DNA of 36,627 bases from Deltaproteobacteria bacterium (GTDB lineage: Bacteria; Desulfobacterota; BSN033; UBA1163). Shown one piece after another: positions 3,163 to 23,430 of the stretch (its first letter is position 1; each line of letters begins with the position of its first letter). A program made the position numbers and the translations under genes. The notes beneath the pieces were generated by a model. It saw only the letters and a list, made by a program, of their open reading frames with translations, had not been told where the DNA came from and did not search any database. Where the stretch lies: assembly GCA_018333535.1 (NCBI GenBank), contig JAGXTA010000152.1:1-36627 (forward strand), given 5' to 3'.

Positions 3163-4635
<1,473 letters not shown>

Positions 4636-4756
4636 GCCCGTTTAGAAAGGGTAAAAACTTTTTCCCCGCCTCTTCTGGATGATATTAAAAAGGTTTAACT
4701 TAACTCATCCTGTAAATGGGGGTTTCTCACGGGGGTAGAAAGGGGAGGGAATCGCC

Positions 4757-6697
4757 TTGAAAAAGACCTTATTGCTCTTCCTTATCATTATCCTCTCCCT
4801 GCTTTATTACCTGGGGTTTCTCACCCGAAAGGAGACCCTTCCGTTATCAAAAGAATTCTTCTCCGCAGAGAGTTCCTCTTCGGTTGAACAGTTCCTGGAT
4901 CTCAAGGGGGTTGGGTTGATTCGATCGAAGATAGCGGAAAGAAAACCTCTTTCATTAGACAAGAAGGATCTGGAACAGCTCTATCAGATGAAATTGGACA
5001 AGGGGATCCGGAATCTTTCCACACTTTCTTTATTGCTGACCAGGCAGGCCACACAGGCCAGAGAAACAGGCGACCTCAATCGAGCCATTGAGCTGGCGAC
5101 CTATGCCAGCAAACTCTCGCCCGATATTCCCCAACCCTACTTCGAATTAGCCCGAACCCGGTTCCAAAGCAAACCGTTTCAACTCGATGGGGTTCTTCCT
5201 GAAATCCTTAAGGGGTACAGGGCGAAATTCAACAATTATCCCGCTTCTCTGACCCTCTTTTACCACATCTTCTATATTCTCTCCAACGCCCTTCTGATGG
5301 CTTTTATCATTTTCGGCATCGTCGTCCTCTGGAAATATTTCTCCCTCTATTTCTATGACATCCGGAGAAATATGACACAGGAGATCTCCAGTCTCTTCGT
5401 CAACGGCCTGAAGGTCTTTGTCCTTTTTATTCCATTCTTCCTGCGGCTGGATATCTCCTGGGCCATTCTCTTCTGGTCCATTCTGTTGTGGGGCTATGTG
5501 CCGGCAAGGGAGAGGCAATTCATCGTTGTCTTTCTGATCGTTTTAGTTTATCTGCCCTTCTTCCTCCGGACCTCCTCCTCTTTTTTAAATGGGCCTGCAT
5601 CGGATATCGTTCTGGAGATGAACGAGGCCAACCATGAGAACTGGGATAAAGGGACAGAAGAGAAATTGAAGGCCTGGTCGCTCTCCCGTTCCGATGACGC
5701 CGGGGCCCTCTTTACCCTGGGCCTGATCGAGAAGAAGCAGGGACGTTACGCTCAAGCCGAAGACTTTTACCGGAGAGCCATCGAACGCGATCCAAATTTG
5801 AGCGAAGCCTATTCCAATCTGGGTAACGTCTACCTGGCCCAGAAGCAAATCCAGTCGGCTATTGCTTCCTATCAGCGGGCCATCGAACTCAATCCGGAAA
5901 AAGGATCGTATTACTACAACCTCTATCGCGCCTATTCCCAGGAGACCTTTTTATCTGGAAAGTCGGACAAAGCCTTCCAGAAGGCCAGACAACTCGACCC
6001 CGAATTGATTCAGCATTATTCCACCATCGAGCCTTCCAATATGAACCGGGTGGTGATCGATGAGGTCTTCACCACGCAGATGTTCTGGAGGAGATTTCTG
6101 GACCAGTATATTGGAAAAGAAGGACTTTTGTTCCGCCTGTTTAAGGCCTGGTTTGAGGCGATTCCATCCGCCCTTCCCCTTCTGGCGCCGATTCTCTTTT
6201 TGGCCTTTCTCATCGGAATGACGAGGTATACCCGGGCGAAGCGTTTCTTGACCCGTTGTCCCATGTGCGGGAGCGCTACCCATCGCTTCTATTTGGGCGC
6301 CTGGGAAACCCCGGAGCAGGAGTTCGTTTGCTTTAACTGCCATCGGCTTTTTGTCCAGAAAGAGAAGCTCCATCCCAAAATCACAGAGAAAAAATCGATC
6401 CAGGCCAATGCGTTTCAAAAGCAGAACCAGTTTACGGGAAAATTTCTCTCTTACTTCCTGGTCGGATTCGGCGACCTTTGGAGAGGCCATCCACTCAGGG
6501 GGCTCTTGCTCCTCTTCCTCTTTTTCATCTTCATTCTGAGATTTGTCTTCTGGAGCGGGGTTCTGCCGGAGTCGGCCTTGCAATCGAGGTTTTCCTGGGG
6601 AGATCTTCTTTTCTGGGGAGGGTTTTTCGGCCTGTTCTACTTCCTCTACTATCGACGAATACGGCGACAAAAACCGGAGTTCGAGATTCCGAAATAA
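4757..6697 (+). CDS. TPR / zinc-ribbon integral membrane protein of unknown function
   Basis: I do not recognise a named family for this 646-residue protein. It starts at TTG 4757, six bases after AGGGGAGGGA. A hydrophobic N-terminal helix (about residues 4-21) is followed by a soluble stretch. Four or so membrane segments lie near 175-285. Two to three tetratricopeptide repeats follow at about 315-395 (GRYAQAEDFYRRAIERDPNLSEAYSNLGNVY is split over two units). Another membrane helix lies near 476-494. A four-cysteine zinc ribbon follows (C501, C504, C525, C528), and two more membrane helices end the protein. TPRs suggest protein-protein contact and the ribbon metal binding. The PATAN-like gene begins 12 bases downstream with its own good ribosome-binding site, so the two are likely made together. 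A scaffold for envelope or pilus-related assembly is possible but only a guess. Confidence 0.8.
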   Translation: MKKTLLLFLIIILSLLYYLGFLTRKETLPLSKEFFSAESSSSVEQFLDLKGVGLIRSKIAERKPLSLDKKDLEQLYQMKLDKGIRNLSTLSLLLTRQATQARETGDLNRAIELATYASKLSPDIPQPYFELARTRFQSKPFQLDGVLPEILKGYRAKFNNYPASLTLFYHIFYILSNALLMAFIIFGIVVLWKYFSLYFYDIRRNMTQEISSLFVNGLKVFVLFIPFFLRLDISWAILFWSILLWGYVPARERQFIVVFLIVLVYLPFFLRTSSSFLNGPASDIVLEMNEANHENWDKGTEEKLKAWSLSRSDDAGALFTLGLIEKKQGRYAQAEDFYRRAIERDPNLSEAYSNLGNVYLAQKQIQSAIASYQRAIELNPEKGSYYYNLYRAYSQETFLSGKSDKAFQKARQLDPELIQHYSTIEPSNMNRVVIDEVFTTQMFWRRFLDQYIGKEGLLFRLFKAWFEAIPSALPLLAPILFLAFLIGMTRYTRAKRFLTRCPMCGSATHRFYLGAWETPEQEFVCFNCHRLFVQKEKLHPKITEKKSIQANAFQKQNQFTGKFLSYFLVGFGDLWRGHPLRGLLLLFLFFIFILRFVFWSGVLPESALQSRFSWGDLLFWGGFFGLFYFLYYRRIRRQKPEFEIPK

Positions 6698-6709
6698 GAG
6701 GAGATATCC

Positions 6710-7822
6710 ATGGCGCTTCAAGGGACACTCAAAGACTTCAGCATTACCGAAATCATCCAGCTCATCGGGCAGCAGCTCAAAACAGGAGTCTTGAAGATAC
6801 GCCGGGGCAAGAGTCTGGTCGAAATCTCTTTTGTCGACGGAATGATCGTCCATGTTTACTCCAATTACCGGGGGAAAAAAGACCTCATCGGCGAAATCCT
6901 GGTTAAGGCCCAGTTGATCACTGACGAACAACTCGAAAGGGTGCTGAAGGTTCAGAAAGAGACGCTCAAATATATAGGAGAGATTCTGGTTGAGCTCGGA
7001 TTGTTGACCAAAGAAGACATCCTGAAGGTGATCACGACTCAGATCTATGAGACGATCTACGACCTTTTTTGGTGGGAGGATGGAGCCTTCAACTTCGATC
7101 TCAAACTCGTGGAAAGTTATAAGAAGATCCCCTTTGCCCTCAGCACGGAGCAGGTCCTGTTGAACATCCTCCGGATGGTCGATGAGTGGTCGGAGATTGA
7201 AAAAAAGATCTTTTCCCCCCATCTCGTCTTTCGGAGAATCTTAGGGGCCGAGGAGAAGATGGCGGGCGTCCTCTCTCCTCAGAGCCTGATGAGGGAGAAG
7301 CTGACTTCGGAACAGGAGTTGATCCTGACCCTGATCGATGGGACACGGACCGTTCAGGAGATCATCGACCGATGCCTTTTAGGGAAGTTCAACACCAGCG
7401 AGATTTTACTCAACCTCATGGAAATGGGGTTTGTCGAGGTGGCCGGGATCCAGACCCCGAGCCTCGTCAAGAAGGTAAGGATGATCAATTTCAGGGAGGC
7501 GCTGACTTTCGTCTATTATGGCGCCTTTTTGATCTTCATCTTTCTCCTTCTGATCTATTTCAAGCCCAATTTTTTGCGCCTCTTCTGGGATTCGAAGATT
7601 GAACGGGTCAATATCGAAGCGCCCGCCCTGTTTGTCCATCGAGCTCAGCTCGACCGGATCAGGAGCGCCCTGGAAATATTCTACCTGGAGAAGGGAGCCT
7701 ATCCTCAAAAACTGGAGGAGCTGGTGGCCGCCCGACTCCTCGGGGAAAGCGACCTCTTCTACCGTAAAGGCGTCTCCTATCAATATGAGGCGAAAGATGG
7801 AAAATATATTTTGAAACATTGA
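6710..7822 (+). CDS. PATAN / DUF4388-like protein with one membrane helix and a pseudopilin-like C-terminus
   Basis: The 370-residue protein begins [19 protein letters not shown], the typical opening of a PATAN (DUF4388) domain (residues 1 to about 60). Then come two segments shaped like the N-terminal domain of GspE/PilB ATPases ([19 protein letters not shown] and [18 protein letters not shown], about 65-120). A winged-helix-like middle region follows, with a single membrane helix at about 263-283. The periplasmic tail (about 305-370), including [19 protein letters not shown], resembles the post-helix part of GspG-type pseudopilins. DUF4388 proteins are generally linked to two-component signalling and gliding or pilus control. 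The start ATG has AGGAGA upstream. It pairs with the preceding TPR membrane protein and precedes guaA by 55 bases. Its exact role is unknown. The domain reading is from motif memory, without a profile search. Confidence 0.75.
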
Positions 7823-7877: not shown

Positions 7878-9437
7878 ATGGAGAAATCGTCAATCTTCGA
7901 TAAGATACTCATACTCGATTTTGGCTCGCAATATACCCAGTTGATTGCCCGACGCGTGAGGGAATGCCGGGTCTATAGCGAAATTCAGCCCTTTGACTTT
8001 CCTCTGGAGAAGATCAAGGCCCTCTCGCCGAAGGGAATCATCCTCTCCGGAGGCCCTTCCAGCGTGTATGAATCAGAAGCCCCTTGCTGCGACCCCAGGC
8101 TGTTCCGATTGGGAATTCCCATCCTGGGGATCTGTTACGGAATGCAATTGATCGCCAACCTGTTGGGAGGGGAAGTTGCCCATTCGGAGAAGAGAGAATA
8201 TGGGAAAGTCCGGTTGATCATCGACCGCGGGGGGAGGCTTTTCAAAGGGATTGGAGGGAAAGGAGATTTCTTACAGGTATGGATGAGTCATGGAGATCAA
8301 CTCCGGAGATTGCCGCCTGGATTTCATCCGGTCGCCCATTCCAGCAGCACCCCTTTTGCCGCGATTGAAGATCGCCGGAGAAGAATCTACGGGCTTCAGT
8401 TCCATCCGGAGGTCATTCATACCCCGAAAGGGATCGACCTCATCCGCAATTTTCTCTTCCCTATCTGTGAATGCCAGCATCCCTGGGACATGCGGTCATT
8501 TGTGGAGGAGGCGACAGGCGAGCTTAAGAAAAAGATCGGTTCAGGAAGCGTGGTCTGCGGCCTGAGCGGAGGGGTCGATTCCACGGTGGTCGCCATTCTT
8601 CTTCACCGGGTGATCGGCGATCGCTTGAAATGCATCTTTGTCAACAACGGGTTGTTGAGACGAAATGAGCCGGAGCAGGTCGTGGACCTCTTCAGCCGCC
8701 ATTTTAATATCCCTCTCATCTATGTGGACGCCGAAGAGCGTTTTCTTAAACGGTTGAAAGGGATGACCGATCCGGAAGAGAAGAGGAAGAAGATCGGGAG
8801 GGAGTTTATCGCCGTTTTCGAAAAGGAAGCAAGAAAGATCGGCGGGGTAAACTATCTGGCTCAGGGGACCCTCTATCCTGATGTGATCGAAAGCATCTCG
8901 TGGAAGGGGCCCTCTGCCACGATTAAGAGTCATCATAACGTCGGGGGATTGCCGGAAAAGATGAAATTGAAGCTGGTGGAACCCCTGCGGGAATTGTTTA
9001 AGGATGAGGTAAGAAAGCTGGGCAGAGTGCTGGGGCTTCCTTCAGAGATGGTTCATCGGCAGCCCTTCCCGGGGCCCGGGCTCGCCATCCGAATCATCGG
9101 AGAGGTTAACAAGGAGAGGCTGGAGATTTTGAGAGACGCGGATGAGATCGTTATGGAAGAGATGAGAAAGAACGATCTCCTGAATAAGGTCTGGCAGTGT
9201 TTTGCGGTCCTGCTTCCCATCAAAACGGTGGGAGTGATGGGAGATTTCCGGACGTATGAAAATGTGGTCGCCCTGCGGGTCGTGGAAAGCCAGGATGGCA
9301 TGACCGCCGATTGGGTGAAGCTGCCTCATCGGATCCTGGAACAGATGGCCAACCGGATCATCAACGAGGTGAAGAAGGTGAACCGGGTGGTCTACGATAT
9401 TAGCTCGAAACCGCCCAGCACGATTGAGTGGGAATAA
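7878..9437 (+). CDS. guaA: GMP synthase (glutamine-hydrolysing)
   Basis: GuaA aminates XMP to GMP using ATP and glutamine and completes the guanine branch begun by guaB. The 519-residue protein has both domains. The N-terminal class I glutamine amidotransferase opens with [18 protein letters not shown], has nucleophile Cys86 in GICYGMQ, and its partners His176 and Glu178 lie in FHPEV. The ATP-pyrophosphatase domain has its P-loop at S230GGVDS. The C-terminal dimerisation domain ends in the standard KPPSTIEWE. The ribosome-binding site (CCGGAAAAAA) is moderate. It may be read through from the two membrane-protein genes upstream. No terminator is visible between it and dnaE; the gap is filled by a palindromic repeat. 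Confidence 0.97.
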
Positions 9438-16002: not shown

Positions 16003-17394
16003 TCAGGATTCCTCGCCGTTATTCAATCCGTATTTCTCCAGCCGGTAGCGCATGGATCGGAAATTGATATGGAGCAGTTCGGCTGCTTTCTTTTTAATCC
16101 CTTTGGTCCGGTCGAGGGCCTTAAGCAGAAGCGTCCTCTCGACATCCTCCACGATCTTTTCGAGGTCGACCCCTTCGCTCGGGATTTCGAGATCGAGTGG
16201 TTTTCTCTTGAGGGGAAGCTGTTCCTCGATATAAGAATTGAGATTTTGGGCGGTCAATTCCTGAGATGTTTCAAGGGCCACTGCCCTCTCGATAATATTC
16301 TGAAGTTCCCTCACATTCCCGGGATAATCATATTGAACCAGAATCCGGAGGGCTTCGGGAGATATCTGGGAAATCTGTTTCCCAAGTTCTTCCGAATATT
16401 TCTTCAAAAAATGGCTGGTCAGAAGAGGAATGTCTTCTTTATGTTCCCTCAGAGAGGGAATTTTTATCTGAATCACATTGAGCCTGTAAAAAAGGTCCTC
16501 TCGAAACTGTTTTTCCCGGACGGCTTCTTCGAGGTCTTTGTTGGTTGCAGAGATGATCCGGACATCGACACGGATGTCCTCGGTCCCTCCCACCCGCTTG
16601 AACTCCCTGTCCTGTAAGACACGGAGTAACTTAACCTGCATCATCAGGGGGAGTTCGCTGATTTCATCGAGAAAGAGGGTCCCCTCGTCAGCGACTTCGA
16701 ATAACCCCTTCTTGGTTGAAATGGCATCGGTAAAAGCTCCTTTCATATGCCCGAAGAGTTCGGTTTCGATGAGGGATTCGGGGATGGCGCCACAGTTTAA
16801 AGTGACGAAGGGTTTGTCCTTGCGCGGACTGTTATAGTGAATCGCCTTGGCCGCCAGTTCCTTGCCGGTCCCGCTTTCTCCGGCGATCAGGATGTTTGTT
16901 TTGGTGGGGGCAACCTTCTCCAGAAGGTCATAAAGATCGAGCATCCTGGAACTCTGCCCGATGATATTTTCGAAATGATACCGATCCCTGACGACCTGTT
17001 TGAGAAGGAGGTTTTCATTCTGAAGATGTTTCTTTTCGAGGGCGTTCTGGATGATCAGCTTGATCTCTTCAATCTTAAAGGGTTTCATGATATAATCATA
17101 AGCCCCTTCCTTCATTGCTTTAATAGCAGTATCGGCAGAGGCATAAGCCGTGATCACGATGACAACTGTTTCGGGCGAGATCGATTTAATCCTTTTCAAG
17201 ACGGAGATGCCATCCTGTCTGGGCATGCGGATATCCACCAGGGCCAGGTCAAAAATATCCTTTTCGATCAGCTTCATCACCTCTTCTCCGTTAGAGGCAA
17301 GCGTGACCTTATAGCCCTCCTTTTTCAGCATGATGTCCAGAAACTCCCTCATGCTTTTTTCATCATCAGCAACCAGAATCTTATCCTTTTGCAT
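16003..17394 (-). CDS. pilR: Sigma-54-dependent response regulator of the NtrC family, PilR-like
   Basis: This 463-residue activator is expected to turn on sigma-54 promoters when phosphorylated. The receiver domain has phospho-acceptor Asp54 in LALVDIRMP. The AAA+ domain has Walker A GESGTGKE (about 171-178), GAFTDA at 219-224 in place of the usual GAFTGA, Walker B LFLDEI, and ISATNKDL. A Fis-type helix-turn-helix ends the protein (KKKAAELLHINFRSMRYRLEKY). It follows the PilS-like kinase after seven bases, so they are a cognate pair. Its place at the end of the pilB-pilT-pilC cluster, which has a sigma-54 promoter, supports PilR rather than another NtrC relative. The Gly-to-Asp change in the sigma-contact loop is notable but occurs elsewhere in the family, as I recall. 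Confidence 0.9.
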   Translation of the reverse strand: MQKDKILVADDEKSMREFLDIMLKKEGYKVTLASNGEEVMKLIEKDIFDLALVDIRMPRQDGISVLKRIKSISPETVVIVITAYASADTAIKAMKEGAYDYIMKPFKIEEIKLIIQNALEKKHLQNENLLLKQVVRDRYHFENIIGQSSRMLDLYDLLEKVAPTKTNILIAGESGTGKELAAKAIHYNSPRKDKPFVTLNCGAIPESLIETELFGHMKGAFTDAISTKKGLFEVADEGTLFLDEISELPLMMQVKLLRVLQDREFKRVGGTEDIRVDVRIISATNKDLEEAVREKQFREDLFYRLNVIQIKIPSLREHKEDIPLLTSHFLKKYSEELGKQISQISPEALRILVQYDYPGNVRELQNIIERAVALETSQELTAQNLNSYIEEQLPLKRKPLDLEIPSEGVDLEKIVEDVERTLLLKALDRTKGIKKKAAELLHINFRSMRYRLEKYGLNNGEES

Positions 17395-17401
17395 TCTCTT
17401 T

Positions 17402-19141
17402 TTACCCTGTTTTCATCGGTTCGACTTGGGTTGATCCGGCAGGCAGAAAAACGGTGAAGACGGATCCCCTGCCGATATCGCTCTCCACTCTGATCACTCC
17501 GTTATGGTTTTCAATAATTTTATGGACGATGGAGAGGCCCAATCCCGTTCCTCCCTCTTTGGTCGTATAGAAGGGCTCGAAGATTTTTTCTTTTTCCTGA
17601 GAGGAGATCCCGTTTCCGGAATCGGTGATCGCGATCTTCACCCATTCGATCTCCCTCTTCGCAGCGCCAAAAGGGAGGCCTCCTACAAAGGTCTCGCTTG
17701 TTCTTTCAATACCAATCCGAATGTCACCGCCGTCCGGGATGGCCTGAGCCGCATTGATCAGAAGATTCCAGAAGACCTGCCGTATCTGGTCCGGGTCGAC
17801 CAGCGCCTCAACGCCTCCATTTTTAGGTGTCCTCGTAATGCGGAGCCCATCATGGAAAGCCGGAGAGTGGATGAAAAGTTCAACCGTTTCGTCAAGGATC
17901 TTTCCGATCTCCCACGGGGATCGATAGGTCTGAGGGGGATGGGCAAAAAGGAGGAAATCGGTGATCAATGCATTGAGCCTCTCTGACTCCCTGAGGGTGA
18001 TGGCCATCAGATGTTCCTGCTGTGGATCGAGAGAGAGCTCCGATTTTAACATCTGAATCGATCCGCTCAATGAGGCCAGCGGATTTCTGATCTCATGGGC
18101 CATCCCTGCGGCGAGGGCGCCGATGGCGGCCATCCGGTCGTATCGTTTCATCTGCTCTTCCATCTCTTTGAAACGGGTGATGTCCTGAAAGATGAGCGTA
18201 TGCCCGATCACGGATCCTTTGGGGTCGGTCAGGGGAGAAATGGAAAACCCGAGATAAATCTTTTCTCCGTACTCTTCGGAAAAAAGGGTTTCATACCGCT
18301 TGTAATCGAGGGGGAAGCCTGACGCCTTACTTTTCAGCTCCCCAAGGACTCCGGCAATCTCTGGAAAAAGATCATAGATGGAGACATTCTTCAGCCCTTC
18401 TCCTTTCCGGTTCAGAATCTTTTCTGCGGTTCGGTTGAGGAAATTGATCCGGCCGTTGAAATCGATGGTGAGGAGCCCACTGTCAAGGCTCTGGACGATA
18501 TTCCGGTTGAAGGCTTCGAGTTGATCGTAATCGACCTGCTTCTGGATGAGTTCACCCTTCTTCTTTTTCAATTCTTCGGAGATCGTGCTGCTCAGAAATG
18601 CCACAATGTAATAGGCGGCTAAATAGGTGATCAGGGAGTAGAAAACCTGGCTGGCCTCAGGCGTGACGAACTGACCCGGGAGGCGGATCCACTCGTAGAG
18701 CTGAAGGAGCAGGATGAGGCCGTAGAGAAAGGTGGAGAGCGATGCCGAATAGAAGGCCCCCCGTTTATAGAAGAGGATGCTGGTTCCGATAATCGTAAAG
18801 ATGTAGGCAAGCGGAAAGAAGCTCTCCTTTCCGCCGGTAAAGGCGATGAGGCCCGCGATGAAGAGATGATCGATCACCAGCTGGATAAAGGTAAATCGAC
18901 GGAGGTTTTTAACACGCTTTAGAAGAAACGCATAAACGATCGTCACCAGATAGAAGAGGCTGATAAAATAGTAGAACTGGTTGGTCATGGGGATGAAGAA
19001 ATATTTCTTCTCGGAGAGCTGAAAGATATAAGCAATCGCGAGCAGGAGGGTGAGGATGATGACACGGGAGACCATCAATCCTTTCACATTTTTCAGGATT
19101 TTCTGCTGGGGGTCGAGAGGAATGTTCAGGTTCGAATTCAT
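17402..19141 (-). CDS. pilS: Membrane sensor histidine kinase, PilS-like
   Basis: This 579-residue inner-membrane kinase is the partner of the adjacent PilR-like regulator. About six hydrophobic helices occupy residues 22-185, as in PilS. A PAS domain follows at about 210-325 (NIVQSLDSGLLTIDFNGRIN). The dimerisation domain has the phospho-acceptor His349 in AAGMAHEIRNPLASL. The ATPase domain contains NLLINAAQAI, DSGNGIS and GTGLGLSIVHKII. In Pseudomonas and Myxococcus PilS responds to pilin level in the membrane; the same is inferred here. The start ATG at 19141 follows a 102-base gap after pilC, which contains an inverted repeat. That suggests an extra control point inside the cluster. Confidence 0.9.
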   Translation of the reverse strand: MNSNLNIPLDPQQKILKNVKGLMVSRVIILTLLLAIAYIFQLSEKKYFFIPMTNQFYYFISLFYLVTIVYAFLLKRVKNLRRFTFIQLVIDHLFIAGLIAFTGGKESFFPLAYIFTIIGTSILFYKRGAFYSASLSTFLYGLILLLQLYEWIRLPGQFVTPEASQVFYSLITYLAAYYIVAFLSSTISEELKKKKGELIQKQVDYDQLEAFNRNIVQSLDSGLLTIDFNGRINFLNRTAEKILNRKGEGLKNVSIYDLFPEIAGVLGELKSKASGFPLDYKRYETLFSEEYGEKIYLGFSISPLTDPKGSVIGHTLIFQDITRFKEMEEQMKRYDRMAAIGALAAGMAHEIRNPLASLSGSIQMLKSELSLDPQQEHLMAITLRESERLNALITDFLLFAHPPQTYRSPWEIGKILDETVELFIHSPAFHDGLRITRTPKNGGVEALVDPDQIRQVFWNLLINAAQAIPDGGDIRIGIERTSETFVGGLPFGAAKREIEWVKIAITDSGNGISSQEKEKIFEPFYTTKEGGTGLGLSIVHKIIENHNGVIRVESDIGRGSVFTVFLPAGSTQVEPMKTG

Positions 19142-19161
19142 AAGTCCCCATTGTTGGCGTT

Positions 19162-19194
19162 AATTGGGACAGGTGAATTATTTAAATCCCAATT
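19162..19194. repeat. Inverted repeat between pilC and pilS
   Basis: AATTGGGA (19162-19169) and TCCCAATT (19187-19194) form a perfect eight-base inverted repeat with a 17-base spacer, in the 102-base gap before pilS. It could be an operator or an mRNA hairpin that sets pilS-pilR expression apart from the structural pil genes. Confidence 0.4.
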
Positions 19195-19243
19195 TCAGCA
19201 TGAAGGGATGTTTTTTTAAAAACAGCCTGTTCTATTAAATATT

Positions 19244-20449
19244 TTAATGCACGGCCGAGGCCATCTGGAAGATTGGCAGATACATTGCGATGACGACCCC
19301 TCCGATCACCACTCCCAGAAAGACCATCAGGAAAGGTTCGAGGAGCGAGGTCAGGTTGCTTACGGCCACATCGACCTCGTCGTCATAGAAATCCGCAATT
19401 TTCGTCAGCATCGAATCCAAGGCGCCCGTTGATTCTCCGACGGAGATCATCTGGATCACCATGGGCGGAAAGACATTGCTCCGGCCCAGGGGGTCGGCAA
19501 TGGTTTCACCCTCACGGATGCTGGCTCTGGCACTCAAGATGGCCGTTTCAATGGTCCTGTTTCCGGCCGTCCTCGAGACAATCAGGAGACCGTCGAGGAT
19601 GGGAACACCGCTGCTCACGAGCGTTCCAAGCGTCCGAGCGAATCGGGCCACGGCGACTTTTTTGAGGAGCATTCCGAAGACAGGCACTTTCAAAATGAGT
19701 CGATCGATCAGGGTTTTTCCCGCCTCCGTCTTATAGAACTTTCTGAAAAGAAAGACGAGAAGGATGACTGCGGGAATGATGACAACGATATATTTCTGGA
19801 TGATCTTGCTCATGGTGAGCACAATGAGGGTGGGGAGCGGAAGAGACTGGCCCGCCGATTTGAACATCGTCTCAAAGACCGGGATGACGAAGATCATCAG
19901 AATGATCACCACAAGGATGGCCACTGACACGATGATGGCGGGATAGATCATGGCGGACTTGACCTTCTTTCTCAGGGCTTCCGCTTTTTCGATATAGTTT
20001 GAGAGCCGGGTGAGGATATTATCGAGAATGCCTCCTTCCTCGCCCGCCACGACAAGGTTCGTATAGAGGTCATCAAAGGCGGCCGGATGCTTTTTAAGGG
20101 CTCCGGCAAAGGTGGACCCGCCTTCCACATCCTCTCTGATTTCTCTGAGGATATTCTTGAAGAGCTTATTTTCCTGCTGAGAAGAAAGGATATCCAGCGA
20201 TTGGACCAGGGGTAGCCCGGCGTCGATCATCGTTGCCAATTGCCGGGTGAAGATGGCGATACTCCGCTGAGGGACCTTCTTCCCCATTGGCAGGGAGATC
20301 TTGAACTCCTTGCCTTTGGCTGCGATTTTTGTGGGGATGATGCTCTGCTGCCGGAGATGGATGCGGATGGCGGCTTCACTCGGAGCCTCCATCTCCCCCT
20401 TCTTGATCGATCCCTTCAGTGTCTTTCCTTCCCATTTAAAGATTGGCAT
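19244..20449 (-). CDS. pilC: Type IV pilus inner-membrane platform protein PilC
   Basis: PilC (GspF family) is the polytopic inner-membrane platform on which the PilB and PilT motors act. The protein is 401 residues, the usual length. It starts MPIFKWEGKTLKGSIKKG and has two GspF domains. The first contains FTRQLATMIDAGLPLVQSL and the second FARTLGTLVSSGVPILDGL. Membrane helices lie near residues 170-195, 218-238 and 374-395. The duplicated cytoplasmic domain is clear. The start ATG has GGAAAGG upstream. It follows pilT by 53 bases in the order pilB-pilT-pilC found in many Deltaproteobacteria. Confidence 0.95.
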   Translation of the reverse strand: MPIFKWEGKTLKGSIKKGEMEAPSEAAIRIHLRQQSIIPTKIAAKGKEFKISLPMGKKVPQRSIAIFTRQLATMIDAGLPLVQSLDILSSQQENKLFKNILREIREDVEGGSTFAGALKKHPAAFDDLYTNLVVAGEEGGILDNILTRLSNYIEKAEALRKKVKSAMIYPAIIVSVAILVVIILMIFVIPVFETMFKSAGQSLPLPTLIVLTMSKIIQKYIVVIIPAVILLVFLFRKFYKTEAGKTLIDRLILKVPVFGMLLKKVAVARFARTLGTLVSSGVPILDGLLIVSRTAGNRTIETAILSARASIREGETIADPLGRSNVFPPMVIQMISVGESTGALDSMLTKIADFYDDEVDVAVSNLTSLLEPFLMVFLGVVIGGVVIAMYLPIFQMASAVH

Positions 20450-20502
20450 AATTCACCTTTCCAGATTCTTCCCCTTGGTTAAAGAGGAAGAAAAATGACA
20501 AT

Positions 20503-21609
20503 TTAGGTTGGTTTGCCCTGTCTCTCTCTCTTTCCGCCCATGATGCCCGCGTTGGATAACATCTGACGAAATTCATCGAGATTATGGCTGCGTTCTAAAG
20601 CGTCTTCCAGGGAGATAAAATGACGCTCCACAAGGGAGAGGAGGGCCTGGTTCATCGTCTGCATTCCGAATTTGGCCTGACCGACCTGCATCAGGGAATA
20701 GAGCTGCTGGATCTTGTCCTCACGGATCAGGTTCCGGATGGCAGGGTTCGGGATCAGGACCTCCATGGCCAGGGCCCGGCCTTTTCCTCCTAATTTTGGG
20801 AGAAGCTGCTGGGACAAAATTCCCTCAAGAACAAAGGAGAGCTGTGTCCGCACCTGCTGTTGCTGGTGGGGCGGGAAGACATCGATGATCCGGTTGATCG
20901 TCTCCACGCAGGAGTTCGTGTGCAGTGTGGCAAAAGTGAGATGACCTGTTTCAGCCGTCAGAAGGGCAGCCTGAATCGTTTCCAGATCCCTCATCTCACC
21001 GATGAGAATGATATCCGGGTCCTGGCGGAGGACGTGCCGCAGGGCGTGGGTAAAGCTTTTGGTGTCGGAGTTGACCTCCCGTTGATTGACGATGCAATTT
21101 TTGTGGCGATGGAGGTATTCGATCGGATCTTCGATCGTAATGATATGGGCATTTTGCTCATTATTGATCTTGTCGATCATGGCGGCAAGGGTGGTGGATT
21201 TCCCGGTGCCCGTGGGGCCTGTGACCAACACGAGGCCCTTTGGTTTCTTAATCAATTCATTGACGATGGGGGGGATTCCCAGTTCAGAAAAGTTGAGGAT
21301 GTCGAAAGAGATGGCCCGGAAGGCTCCAGCCACAGCGCCTCTCTGCATATAGATGTTCCCCCGGAATCGGCTCAAACCTTTAATGCCAAAGGAGAAATCC
21401 AGTTCTGTCTCCTCCTCAAACTTGTGACGTTGTGCATCGGTGAGCACGCTGTAACAGAGCCGTTTCGTGTCGGGAGCAGTGAGAAGGGTTGCATCGACGC
21501 CCATTAACTTTCCATCGATCCTGCACTGGGGAGGAGAGCCTGTGGTGATATGCAAATCGGAGGCTTTCTTTTCTATCATGAGTTCAAGTAGTTTCTGTAA
21601 TTCGATCAT
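20503..21609 (-). CDS. pilT: Type IV pilus retraction ATPase PilT
   Basis: PilT is the hexameric ATPase that powers pilus depolymerisation and twitching motility. The 368-residue protein opens with ELLELMIEKKASDLHITTG. It has Walker A at G131PTGTGKST, an Asp-box region ITIEDPIEYLH, Walker B ILIGEMRD and the His-box GHLTFATLHTNS. It also has the C-terminal TMNQALLSL segment typical of PilT. Its smaller size and lack of an MshEN domain and zinc cluster separate it from PilB next door. It starts 27 bases after the pilB stop, with GGAGAAGAGGAAAC as ribosome-binding region. Confidence 0.96.
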   Translation of the reverse strand: MIELQKLLELMIEKKASDLHITTGSPPQCRIDGKLMGVDATLLTAPDTKRLCYSVLTDAQRHKFEEETELDFSFGIKGLSRFRGNIYMQRGAVAGAFRAISFDILNFSELGIPPIVNELIKKPKGLVLVTGPTGTGKSTTLAAMIDKINNEQNAHIITIEDPIEYLHRHKNCIVNQREVNSDTKSFTHALRHVLRQDPDIILIGEMRDLETIQAALLTAETGHLTFATLHTNSCVETINRIIDVFPPHQQQQVRTQLSFVLEGILSQQLLPKLGGKGRALAMEVLIPNPAIRNLIREDKIQQLYSLMQVGQAKFGMQTMNQALLSLVERHFISLEDALERSHNLDEFRQMLSNAGIMGGKRERQGKPT

Positions 21610-21636
21610 GTTTCCTCTTCTCCTTCTTTTAAAAGA

Positions 21637-23430
21637 TTATCGATCGTCCATGGTCGATCGGAGCACTTCTTCGATCGTGGTCAATCCTTCTCGAATCTTA
21701 ATGATCCCGCTCTGCCGGAGGGTCTTCATCCCTAACCGCATGGCTTCTTTCTTAACTTCCGAAGTCGATGCCCGGGAAAGGATAAGCTCCTTGATCTCTT
21801 CTTTGATCGCCATCACCTCATAGAGTCCGACCCGGCCTTTATAACCCGTATTATTACAGATCGAACATCCTTTCCCTTTATAAACCGGGAAAGATTTTAC
21901 CTCATCCGGTGAAACCCCCAGATCGATCAGGAGCTGAGGGTGAACCTTGATGGGTTCCCGGCATTCCATGCAAATTTTTCGAATCAACCTCTGTGCCAGG
22001 ATGAGGATGACCGCAGAGGAAATCAAAAAGGGCTCAATGCCCATATCGATCAAACGAGTCACGGTTCCAGGAGCATCATTGGTATGAACCGTGCTCAGGA
22101 CGAGGTGTCCGGTGAGAGCGGCCTGAACCGCAATCTGGGCGGTTTCAAAGTCACGGACCTCGCCCACCATGATGATGTCCGGATCCTGTCGGAGGAACGC
22201 CCGGAGCGAAGAGGCAAAGGTTAGCCCGATCTCCTCATGCATCTGGACCTGATTGATCCCCATAAAATTATATTCCACGGGGTCTTCGGCAGTGGTGATA
22301 TTCTCCGTCTCTTTATTCAATTCGGATAGAGCCGAATAGAGGGTCGTCGTCTTTCCACTCCCCGTGGGCCCGGTGACGAGAATCATCCCCACAGGTTTTC
22401 GGAGGGCATTCTTGAAATCCTCAAGGGATGATTCTTCGAACCCTAATTTGACCATGTCCAGTTGTAAAGACGATTTATCGAGGAGGCGAAGAACCACCTT
22501 TTCTCCGAAGAGGACAGGAACGGTGGAAACCCGGAAGTCCATCTCACGGCCTTTGCCGAGGCGCAATTTGATTCTCCCGTCCTGGGGAAGGCGCCTTTCA
22601 GCGATGTCGAGCTTGGACATGATTTTTAGACGGGAGACAATGGCATTTTTGATCTGGGTGGGGAGCGTCATCTCCCGTCTCATGACGCCATCGACACGGT
22701 ATCTGACCCGGAAACTCTTCTCGTAAGGTTCAAAATGGACGTCACTGGCTCCCAATTTGATCGCCTTGATCAGGACCCCGTTGACGATTTTGATGATCGG
22801 ACCTCCGATCTCATCTGTTTCATCCGCGGTCTGGTTTTCAACAACCTCAATATTATCGACCGCTCCATGGACCAGCTTGTCAAACTCATCGACATCGACC
22901 AAACTGGTGTCGATGAGGTCGAAATCAGAATCCGAGGATTTATCTTCATCAAGGGAGTAATCGAGGGCCTGGAAAGACGTCGTTCCCAGGCCAGCCACAC
23001 TTCCCCCACCGCCGTAATATTTCTTTATGGCATCGACGATCTCCGTCTCGGAAGCCACTACTGGCTCAACATTAAAACCGGTCATAAATTTGATTTCATC
23101 GATGACGACAATGTTGCTTGGATCAGCCATCGCCAGTGTCAATTTGGGACCTACGCGATTAATGGGTATGATAAAGTATTTTTTTGAGATACTCGGGGGG
23201 ATCAATTTAGTGACATTGGGGTTGATTTCGATTTTCGAGATTTTTACAGAGGGAACCCGGTACTGGGCGCTCAAGAAGGAAAGAAGCTCATCCTCTTTAA
23301 TATAGCCCAACTTCACCAGATTGGACTCTAAACGCCCCCCCTTCAGTTTTTGCTCATCCTGCGCCTTTTTTAGTTGCTCAGGTGTAATAAAATTTCTTTT
23401 GATGAGCAGTTCGCCTAATCTTTCTGACAA
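21637..23430 (-). CDS. pilB: Type IV pilus assembly ATPase PilB
   Basis: PilB drives pilus extension. The 597-residue protein has an N-terminal MshEN domain (LGELLIKRNFITPEQLKKAQ; this fold is known to bind cyclic-di-GMP in some relatives). A linker follows, then the ATPase core with Walker A G354PTGSGKTTT, an Asp box TAEDPVEYNF, Walker B IMVGEVRD and the His-box GHLVLSTVHTND. A tetracysteine zinc site has C-M-E-C near residue 492 and C-S-I-C near 527. Translation starts at TTG (23430-23428), with GAGGGGGTAGGAG upstream. It is the first gene of the pil operon, and a sigma-54 promoter lies 80 bases upstream. No pilin (pilA) or pilMNOPQ genes are in the window. Confidence 0.96.
   Translation of the reverse strand: MSERLGELLIKRNFITPEQLKKAQDEQKLKGGRLESNLVKLGYIKEDELLSFLSAQYRVPSVKISKIEINPNVTKLIPPSISKKYFIIPINRVGPKLTLAMADPSNIVVIDEIKFMTGFNVEPVVASETEIVDAIKKYYGGGGSVAGLGTTSFQALDYSLDEDKSSDSDFDLIDTSLVDVDEFDKLVHGAVDNIEVVENQTADETDEIGGPIIKIVNGVLIKAIKLGASDVHFEPYEKSFRVRYRVDGVMRREMTLPTQIKNAIVSRLKIMSKLDIAERRLPQDGRIKLRLGKGREMDFRVSTVPVLFGEKVVLRLLDKSSLQLDMVKLGFEESSLEDFKNALRKPVGMILVTGPTGSGKTTTLYSALSELNKETENITTAEDPVEYNFMGINQVQMHEEIGLTFASSLRAFLRQDPDIIMVGEVRDFETAQIAVQAALTGHLVLSTVHTNDAPGTVTRLIDMGIEPFLISSAVILILAQRLIRKICMECREPIKVHPQLLIDLGVSPDEVKSFPVYKGKGCSICNNTGYKGRVGLYEVMAIKEEIKELILSRASTSEVKKEAMRLGMKTLRQSGIIKIREGLTTIEEVLRSTMDDR

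Follow-up and report, generated by a model that had tools for sequence, protein, structure and literature searches.

The cyanobacterial PATAN-REC regulators PixG, PixE and LsiR are reported to bind PilB1/PilC and to steer type IV pili, the binding of both proteins being described for PATAN regulators of Synechocystis (PMC12288463, PMC7690835). A second group of described proteins, the MshEN/GSPII receptors (MshE and Thermus PilF), carries a domain composed of two 24-residue motifs and a 5-residue spacer, and domains of the MshE type are reported to bind c-di-GMP (PMC5013675, PMC12002112). A change of Arg9 in MshE reportedly lowers the affinity no more than about fivefold (PMC5013675/PMC12002112). 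Myxococcus has a polarity module formed by MglA and SgmX. Genes for PATAN proteins in the vicinity of MglA genes have already been reported (PMC4316618), and two M. xanthus PATAN proteins, MXAN_3211 and MXAN_4965, are stated to co-occur with SgmX by STRING (PMC11580455). Here we compare with these systems, and with GspG/EpsG pseudopilins and PilW/PilF-type pilus TPR proteins, a pair of genes found in a stretch of DNA of 36,627 nucleotides, the whole of which is called the window below.

The two genes, ORF1 (4757-6697, + strand, 646 aa, TTG start) and ORF2 (6710-7822, + strand, 370 aa, ATG start), are separated by 12 nt and flanked in this lineage by genes that we take to be guaB upstream (3166-4635, + strand) and guaA downstream (7878-9437, + strand). 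These neighbors are given for context only, and their names come from their sequences and from mutual BLAST in relatives rather than from a family search. The first-pass annotation had described a pair 12 bases apart, wedged between guaB and guaA, and this layout is correct in its coordinates and strand. Both genes have ribosome-binding sites rated good, AAGGGGAGGG at 4740-4749 for ORF1 and AGAGGAG, beside the ORF1 stop, for ORF2. About 8 kb beyond ORF2, the window carries a further block of genes (16003-23430) in the opposite orientation, consisting of PilB (21637-23430, - strand; TIGR02538, 759 bits, cut-off 675.65) and, adjoining it at 16003-21609, genes which we presume to be pilR, pilS, pilC and pilT.

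ORF1 has the features of a polytopic inner-membrane protein with two helical-repeat segments, a TPR domain and a zinc ribbon. The TPRs were recognized in a Pfam scan (TPR_2, 73.2 bits, cut-off 27), and the predicted model (mean pLDDT 84.2, pTM 0.82), as all models here folded from alignments of the window and related loci only, has a helical segment near the N-terminus (residues 69-138; 4961-5170, + strand) and the TPR domain at residues 278-423 (5588-6025, + strand; 278-425 in the model comparison). By both Foldseek and VIA-align these are generic TPRs: the domain fits consensus TPRs with a Z of about 18, and its fit to 2ho1, with a Z of 16.1, is equaled or exceeded by those of many unrelated TPR proteins. 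ORF1 shares the TPR domain with PilW/PilF-type proteins, but it reaches only 35.1 bits on TIGR02521, the cut-off of which is 154. The four cysteines of the CxxC...CxxC ribbon (C501, C504, C525 and C528; residues 501-528; 6257-6340, + strand) are invariant, both in 49/49 aligned homologues and in another set (52/52). Residues 194-213, 246-253, 492-578 and 633-646 are on average rich in Lys+Arg; the content is lower in residues 21-160 and 278-475. From this distribution and the positive-inside rule we infer that the N-terminal segment and the TPR domain lie outside, in the periplasm, and the zinc ribbon inside, in the cytoplasm.

The PATAN (DUF4388) domain of ORF2 was recognized by family search (PF14332, 109 bits, cut-off 25), and it is matched by 52/52 homologues. 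Inside this domain there is an MshE-type insert (residues 59-111; 6884-7042, + strand), that is, two 24-residue motifs (59-82 and 88-111) with a 5-residue spacer, 53 residues in all, which split the domain. NF053729, which represents the MshE-related c-di-GMP motif, matches ORF2 residues 60-111 with 54 bits (cut-off 38), and at E<=0.01 it is matched by all 52 of the aligned homologues. When the ORF2 profile was compared with the PDB at E<=1, 14 of the 15 sequences found were PilF, PilB or MshE chains, MshE 5htl aligning without gaps (E 1.2e-11). In the predicted AlphaFold model (mean pLDDT 81.9, pTM 0.61) residues 57-114 superimpose on the c-di-GMP-bound PilF GSPII-B with a Z of 6.8 over 57 residues at 1.4 A (VIA-align). 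A Foldseek search with this model found nothing at E<=0.001.

ORF2 is thus similar to the MshEN/GSPII receptors in motif lengths, spacer, Gly/Leu/Gln positions and the fold of residues 57-114, while it differs from them in that the motif lies inside a PATAN domain, the protein has no ATPase, and the arginines are replaced in the window. The glycine and the glutamine of both motifs are kept almost throughout (G61 in 52/52 homologues; G90, Q82 and Q111 in 51/52 each). The first-position arginine is lost from both window motifs, being L59 in one and Y88 in the other; among homologues it is found in 5/52 (motif I) and 27/52 (motif II), and in families f10, f34 and f44 the whole MshE-type motif of ORF2 is decayed. 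Judged from these sequence features, ORF2 probably carries a receptor motif for c-di-GMP, to which it may bind. As regards PixG, PixE and LsiR, the common element is the PATAN domain; in contrast to them, ORF2 is predicted to be membrane-anchored, shows no receiver domain in the Pfam scan, and has in addition a winged helix, a tail and an MshE-type insert that is complete. In C159 (285 aa), the other protein with DUF4388 that the window genome encodes, no such insert is apparent by eye.

The remainder of ORF2 consists of a winged helix (residues 162-248; 7193-7453, + strand; Z 8.9 over 74 residues at 2.9 A to a winged helix of GATOR1), a single transmembrane helix predicted from the model and charge counts (residues 263-284; 7496-7561, + strand), and a GspG/EpsG-like tail (residues 305-370; 7622-7819, + strand), recognized by model comparison, that would be periplasmic. 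Model residues 301-370 fit EpsG with a Z of 7.0 over 69 residues at 2.5 A and 23% identity, a Z below 8 being of the kind that may reflect a common arrangement. PF08334 (GspG) scores 13.4 bits on the window tail and 18 bits on the Archangium homologue, both under the cut-off of 21; T2SSG is matched by 34/52 homologues at E<=0.1, and GspG TIGR01710 by 9/52 at E<=0.01. A PDB sequence search with the tail profile was discounted, as GspG chains (E 0.76-0.96) ranked behind unrelated winged-helix proteins (E 0.11). The tail may resemble GspG/EpsG pseudopilins in its modeled fold, and it has weak family matches below the cut-off; unlike in pseudopilins, the transmembrane helix (263-284) is internal, behind a large cytoplasmic part, and no prepilin peptidase cleavage site was seen in ORF2 by eye. 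Seven of nine distant ORF2 proteins read by eye are devoid of the GspG-like tail, and because the motif is decayed in the three families named above, neither tail nor motif is universal.

A genome collection was scanned with the ORF2 alignment alone, and ORF1 neighbors were then found by profile searches. Among the best 80 of 137 ORF2 relatives, an ORF1 homologue lies directly upstream on the same strand in 80/80 loci, with gaps of -1 to 82 nt. These 80 come from Syntrophaceae, Deltaproteobacteria, Thermodesulfobacteriota, Proteobacteria and Myxococcota, the last including Myxococcus, Archangium, Corallococcus and Anaeromyxobacter. We also sampled 197 genomes of the window's phylum, each at least 90% complete. 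The C-terminal part of ORF1 was matched at E<=1e-4 in 61 of them, and in 58 of these 61 ORF2 is located directly downstream, a count verified by script on the fetched stretches (G003 and G007 were verified separately). The other three are G139, where ORF1 is at the contig end, and G083 and G109, which gave weak partial matches. Twelve Myxococcota genomes each encode one full-length ORF2 (E 1e-140 or better), their other PATAN proteins scoring E 1e-31 or weaker.

The first-pass annotation had suggested that the two proteins both join soluble domains to membrane helices and that, if conserved elsewhere as neighbors, they would be a candidate for an undescribed envelope system. Domain searches and models agree on the former, and no homologues separated from each other were encountered among the best 80 of 137. 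As the pair is co-oriented, closely spaced and conserved, and both proteins have soluble and membrane parts, it can fairly be called an undescribed envelope module. No account of the ORF1-ORF2 pair was found in the accessible portions of the literature on PATAN/DUF4388 proteins. Two deviating arrangements were recorded. In L103:1273-4521 guaB and ORF1 form one open frame of 1082 aa, either a fusion or a stop lost in a draft assembly. In genome G140 an ORF2-like PATAN protein (L172:6959-7981) occurs without ORF1; 3-4 kb downstream of it there are a GTPase of the MglA type and another PATAN-like ORF that matches in part (L172:10971-12143).

Genes of the type IV pilus are more frequent in genomes that have ORF1. 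PilM is mildly enriched (51/61 ORF1 genomes against 88/136 others, p 0.007). Since this difference was only modest, we next used PilB as the pilus marker, calling it by TIGR02538 at E<=1e-195 with up to 6 candidates scored per genome. PilB was found in 57/61 genomes with ORF1 and in 62/136 without it (odds ratio 17, Fisher p 2e-11, statistics that ignore kinship). Counted by family, the figures are 19/19 and 31/59, respectively (p 6e-5), with f44 placed among the families without ORF1 as its diverged ORF1 fell under the cut; the family sets and the relative sets are non-independent samples. The ORF1 genomes without PilB at the cut used, with no more than 6 candidates scored in each, are G007, G031, G097 and G195. 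In Myxococcota, PilB exceeds the cut-off in all 12 pair-bearing genomes checked, a figure that stands without a comparison group. Ten ORF1 genomes, the window genome included, have no strong PilM; PilB is over the cut-off in nine of them and just under it in G045, and PilO was found in 1/10 of them and in 3/12 chosen genomes. For the window genome itself, PilM matches are only weak and PilO was not found. No operon joining the pair with pilus genes was seen in the loci examined.

An MglA-type GTPase is present in 53/61 ORF1 genomes and in 56/136 others. At E<=1e-30 there is no MglA in the window genome (G000), G003 or G008, three members of one genus which all are also without strong PilM. In G005, G010, G011, G012 and G017, PilM and MglA are 4-5 kb apart, and therefore one missing locus could explain both absences. 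In the phylum sample, 22 of the 24 strongest MglA matches (E<1e-115) adjoin the pair, a proportion favored by the query, as eight GTPases from such operons had been used to make it. Across eight members, the GTPases upstream of the pair measure 287-414 aa and contain, besides a linker that varies, a small C-terminal part that is conserved; long examples are L181:3656-4822, L175:4335-5429 and L176:5032-6276. In several families the genes upstream of the pair encode a TPR protein and a GTPase of the MglA type, which is reminiscent of the MglA-SgmX module; the differences are that ORF1 is polytopic and has a zinc ribbon, and that the window is without such an operon.

The genomic setting of the pair is not constant. 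The fetched stretches, chosen for holding a pair and thus an uneven sample, contain 63 distinct pairs: 20 have guaB upstream, 14 have phoH downstream, 17 have an MglA-type GTPase directly upstream (a place taken by guaB in the window), and 12, some of them on short contigs, have none of these. Four further stretches (L080, L172, L209 and L210) are without a complete pair. Among the 80 named loci (the best 80 of 137), guaB is upstream in 29, counting the fused frame of L103; PhoH is present in 43/53 stretches of the named loci L109-L161; and the neighbors in named loci of Myxococcota are phoH, 7TM-HD and ybeY, with prfB-like genes also near. The first-pass annotation had proposed to look for the pair with or without guaA/guaB: the pair itself is kept, while the guaB/guaA setting holds for only 20/63. 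Even this setting can be rearranged. In G010 (L066:11982-12055) guaA is gone between ORF2 and dnaE, guaB being still upstream, and in G018 (L070:2886-8058) guaB-ORF1-ORF2 are still together, but guaA and dnaE lie upstream of hflX in the opposite orientation. A further setting, seen in families f47 and f24, is a short ORF, encoding about 106-109 aa, just upstream of ORF1 (L212:9271-9591, L200:5283-5612, L179:6137-6466), FSGFIVSLAQAA-like in two of the three examples.

The reading that we prefer, to which we give about even credence, is that ORF1 and ORF2 are one functional unit, an inner-membrane regulator of type IVa pili with c-di-GMP input in the lineages that keep the motif. It is suggested by the reported binding of PATAN regulators of Synechocystis to PilB1 and PilC and of MshE-type domains to c-di-GMP, together with the anatomy of the two ORFs. 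ORF2 would be held in the inner membrane by its one transmembrane helix, with the PATAN domain, split by the 53-residue motif, and then the winged helix in the cytoplasm, and, in this lineage, with the pseudopilin-like tail outside the inner membrane. ORF1 would be the membrane partner, and because its TPR parts would face the periplasm and its ribbon the cytoplasm, it could meet ORF2 on both sides of the membrane. The state of ORF2 would be set by c-di-GMP, or by an MglA-type GTPase instead where the motif has decayed, and the pair would relay this state to the pilus motor or to minor pilins. What the analysis shows directly is the pair with its conservation and its domains, and that it co-occurs with PilB; as with the topology, we infer the contact between ORF1 and ORF2, the binding of c-di-GMP, the pilus as target and the direction of control. 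The pair looks like an undescribed inner-membrane switch which may let c-di-GMP act on the pilus machine. Only tentatively do we offer a more specific form, a transmembrane pilus relay of Desulfobacterota-type bacteria and Myxococcota, in which c-di-GMP at the MshE-type site within the membrane-anchored PATAN protein would move the periplasmic pseudopilin-like domain and the TPR/zinc-ribbon partner would read or hold it, MglA-type GTPases being plugged in in several families.

It is possible, if rather doubtful, that the pair is instead an envelope-assembly or housekeeping unit, acting for instance on lipoprotein, cell-wall or secretion factors, which merely shares larger-genome lineages with type IV pili, its PATAN and MshE parts being scaffolds without a ligand. 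The frequent PhoH, the nearby 7TM-HD, ybeY and prfB-like genes, the lost motif arginines and the lack of a PilO or MglA match in the window genome all fit such a unit, and the PilB statistics ignore kinship. On the other hand, the setting varies among guaB/guaA, phoH and MglA, so there is no constant housekeeping neighbor; the PilB association persists at the family level; and the glycine and glutamine of both motifs are kept in 51-52 of 52 homologues.

A part in type II secretion, where the GspG-like tail would dock into pseudopilins and the MshE-type motif would have been taken from the GspE/PilB class, seems improbable to us. The tail is indeed nearest to EpsG/GspG, but it is absent from most of the distant ORF2 proteins read, and no gsp neighbors were recorded beside the pair (a weak argument, as the reference set held no gsp genes). 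That the pair serves GMP/GTP supply, being located between guaB and guaA, is hardly credible, since this location, although kept in this lineage, is one of several settings, and 43/63 pairs are set elsewhere; GTP supply was thus rejected as a general explanation. Of the speculative link to GTP or c-di-GMP supply made in the first-pass annotation, only c-di-GMP is retained, in another form, that of the probable receptor motif inside ORF2.

A location between guaB and guaA can thus mislead about function. If our preferred reading, that of a pilus regulator, is true, one membrane module would unite c-di-GMP with MglA-type GTPases and PATAN proteins, which have hitherto been considered separately, and Myxococcota and Desulfobacterota-type bacteria would offer a directly testable gene pair for the setting of type IV pilus activity.
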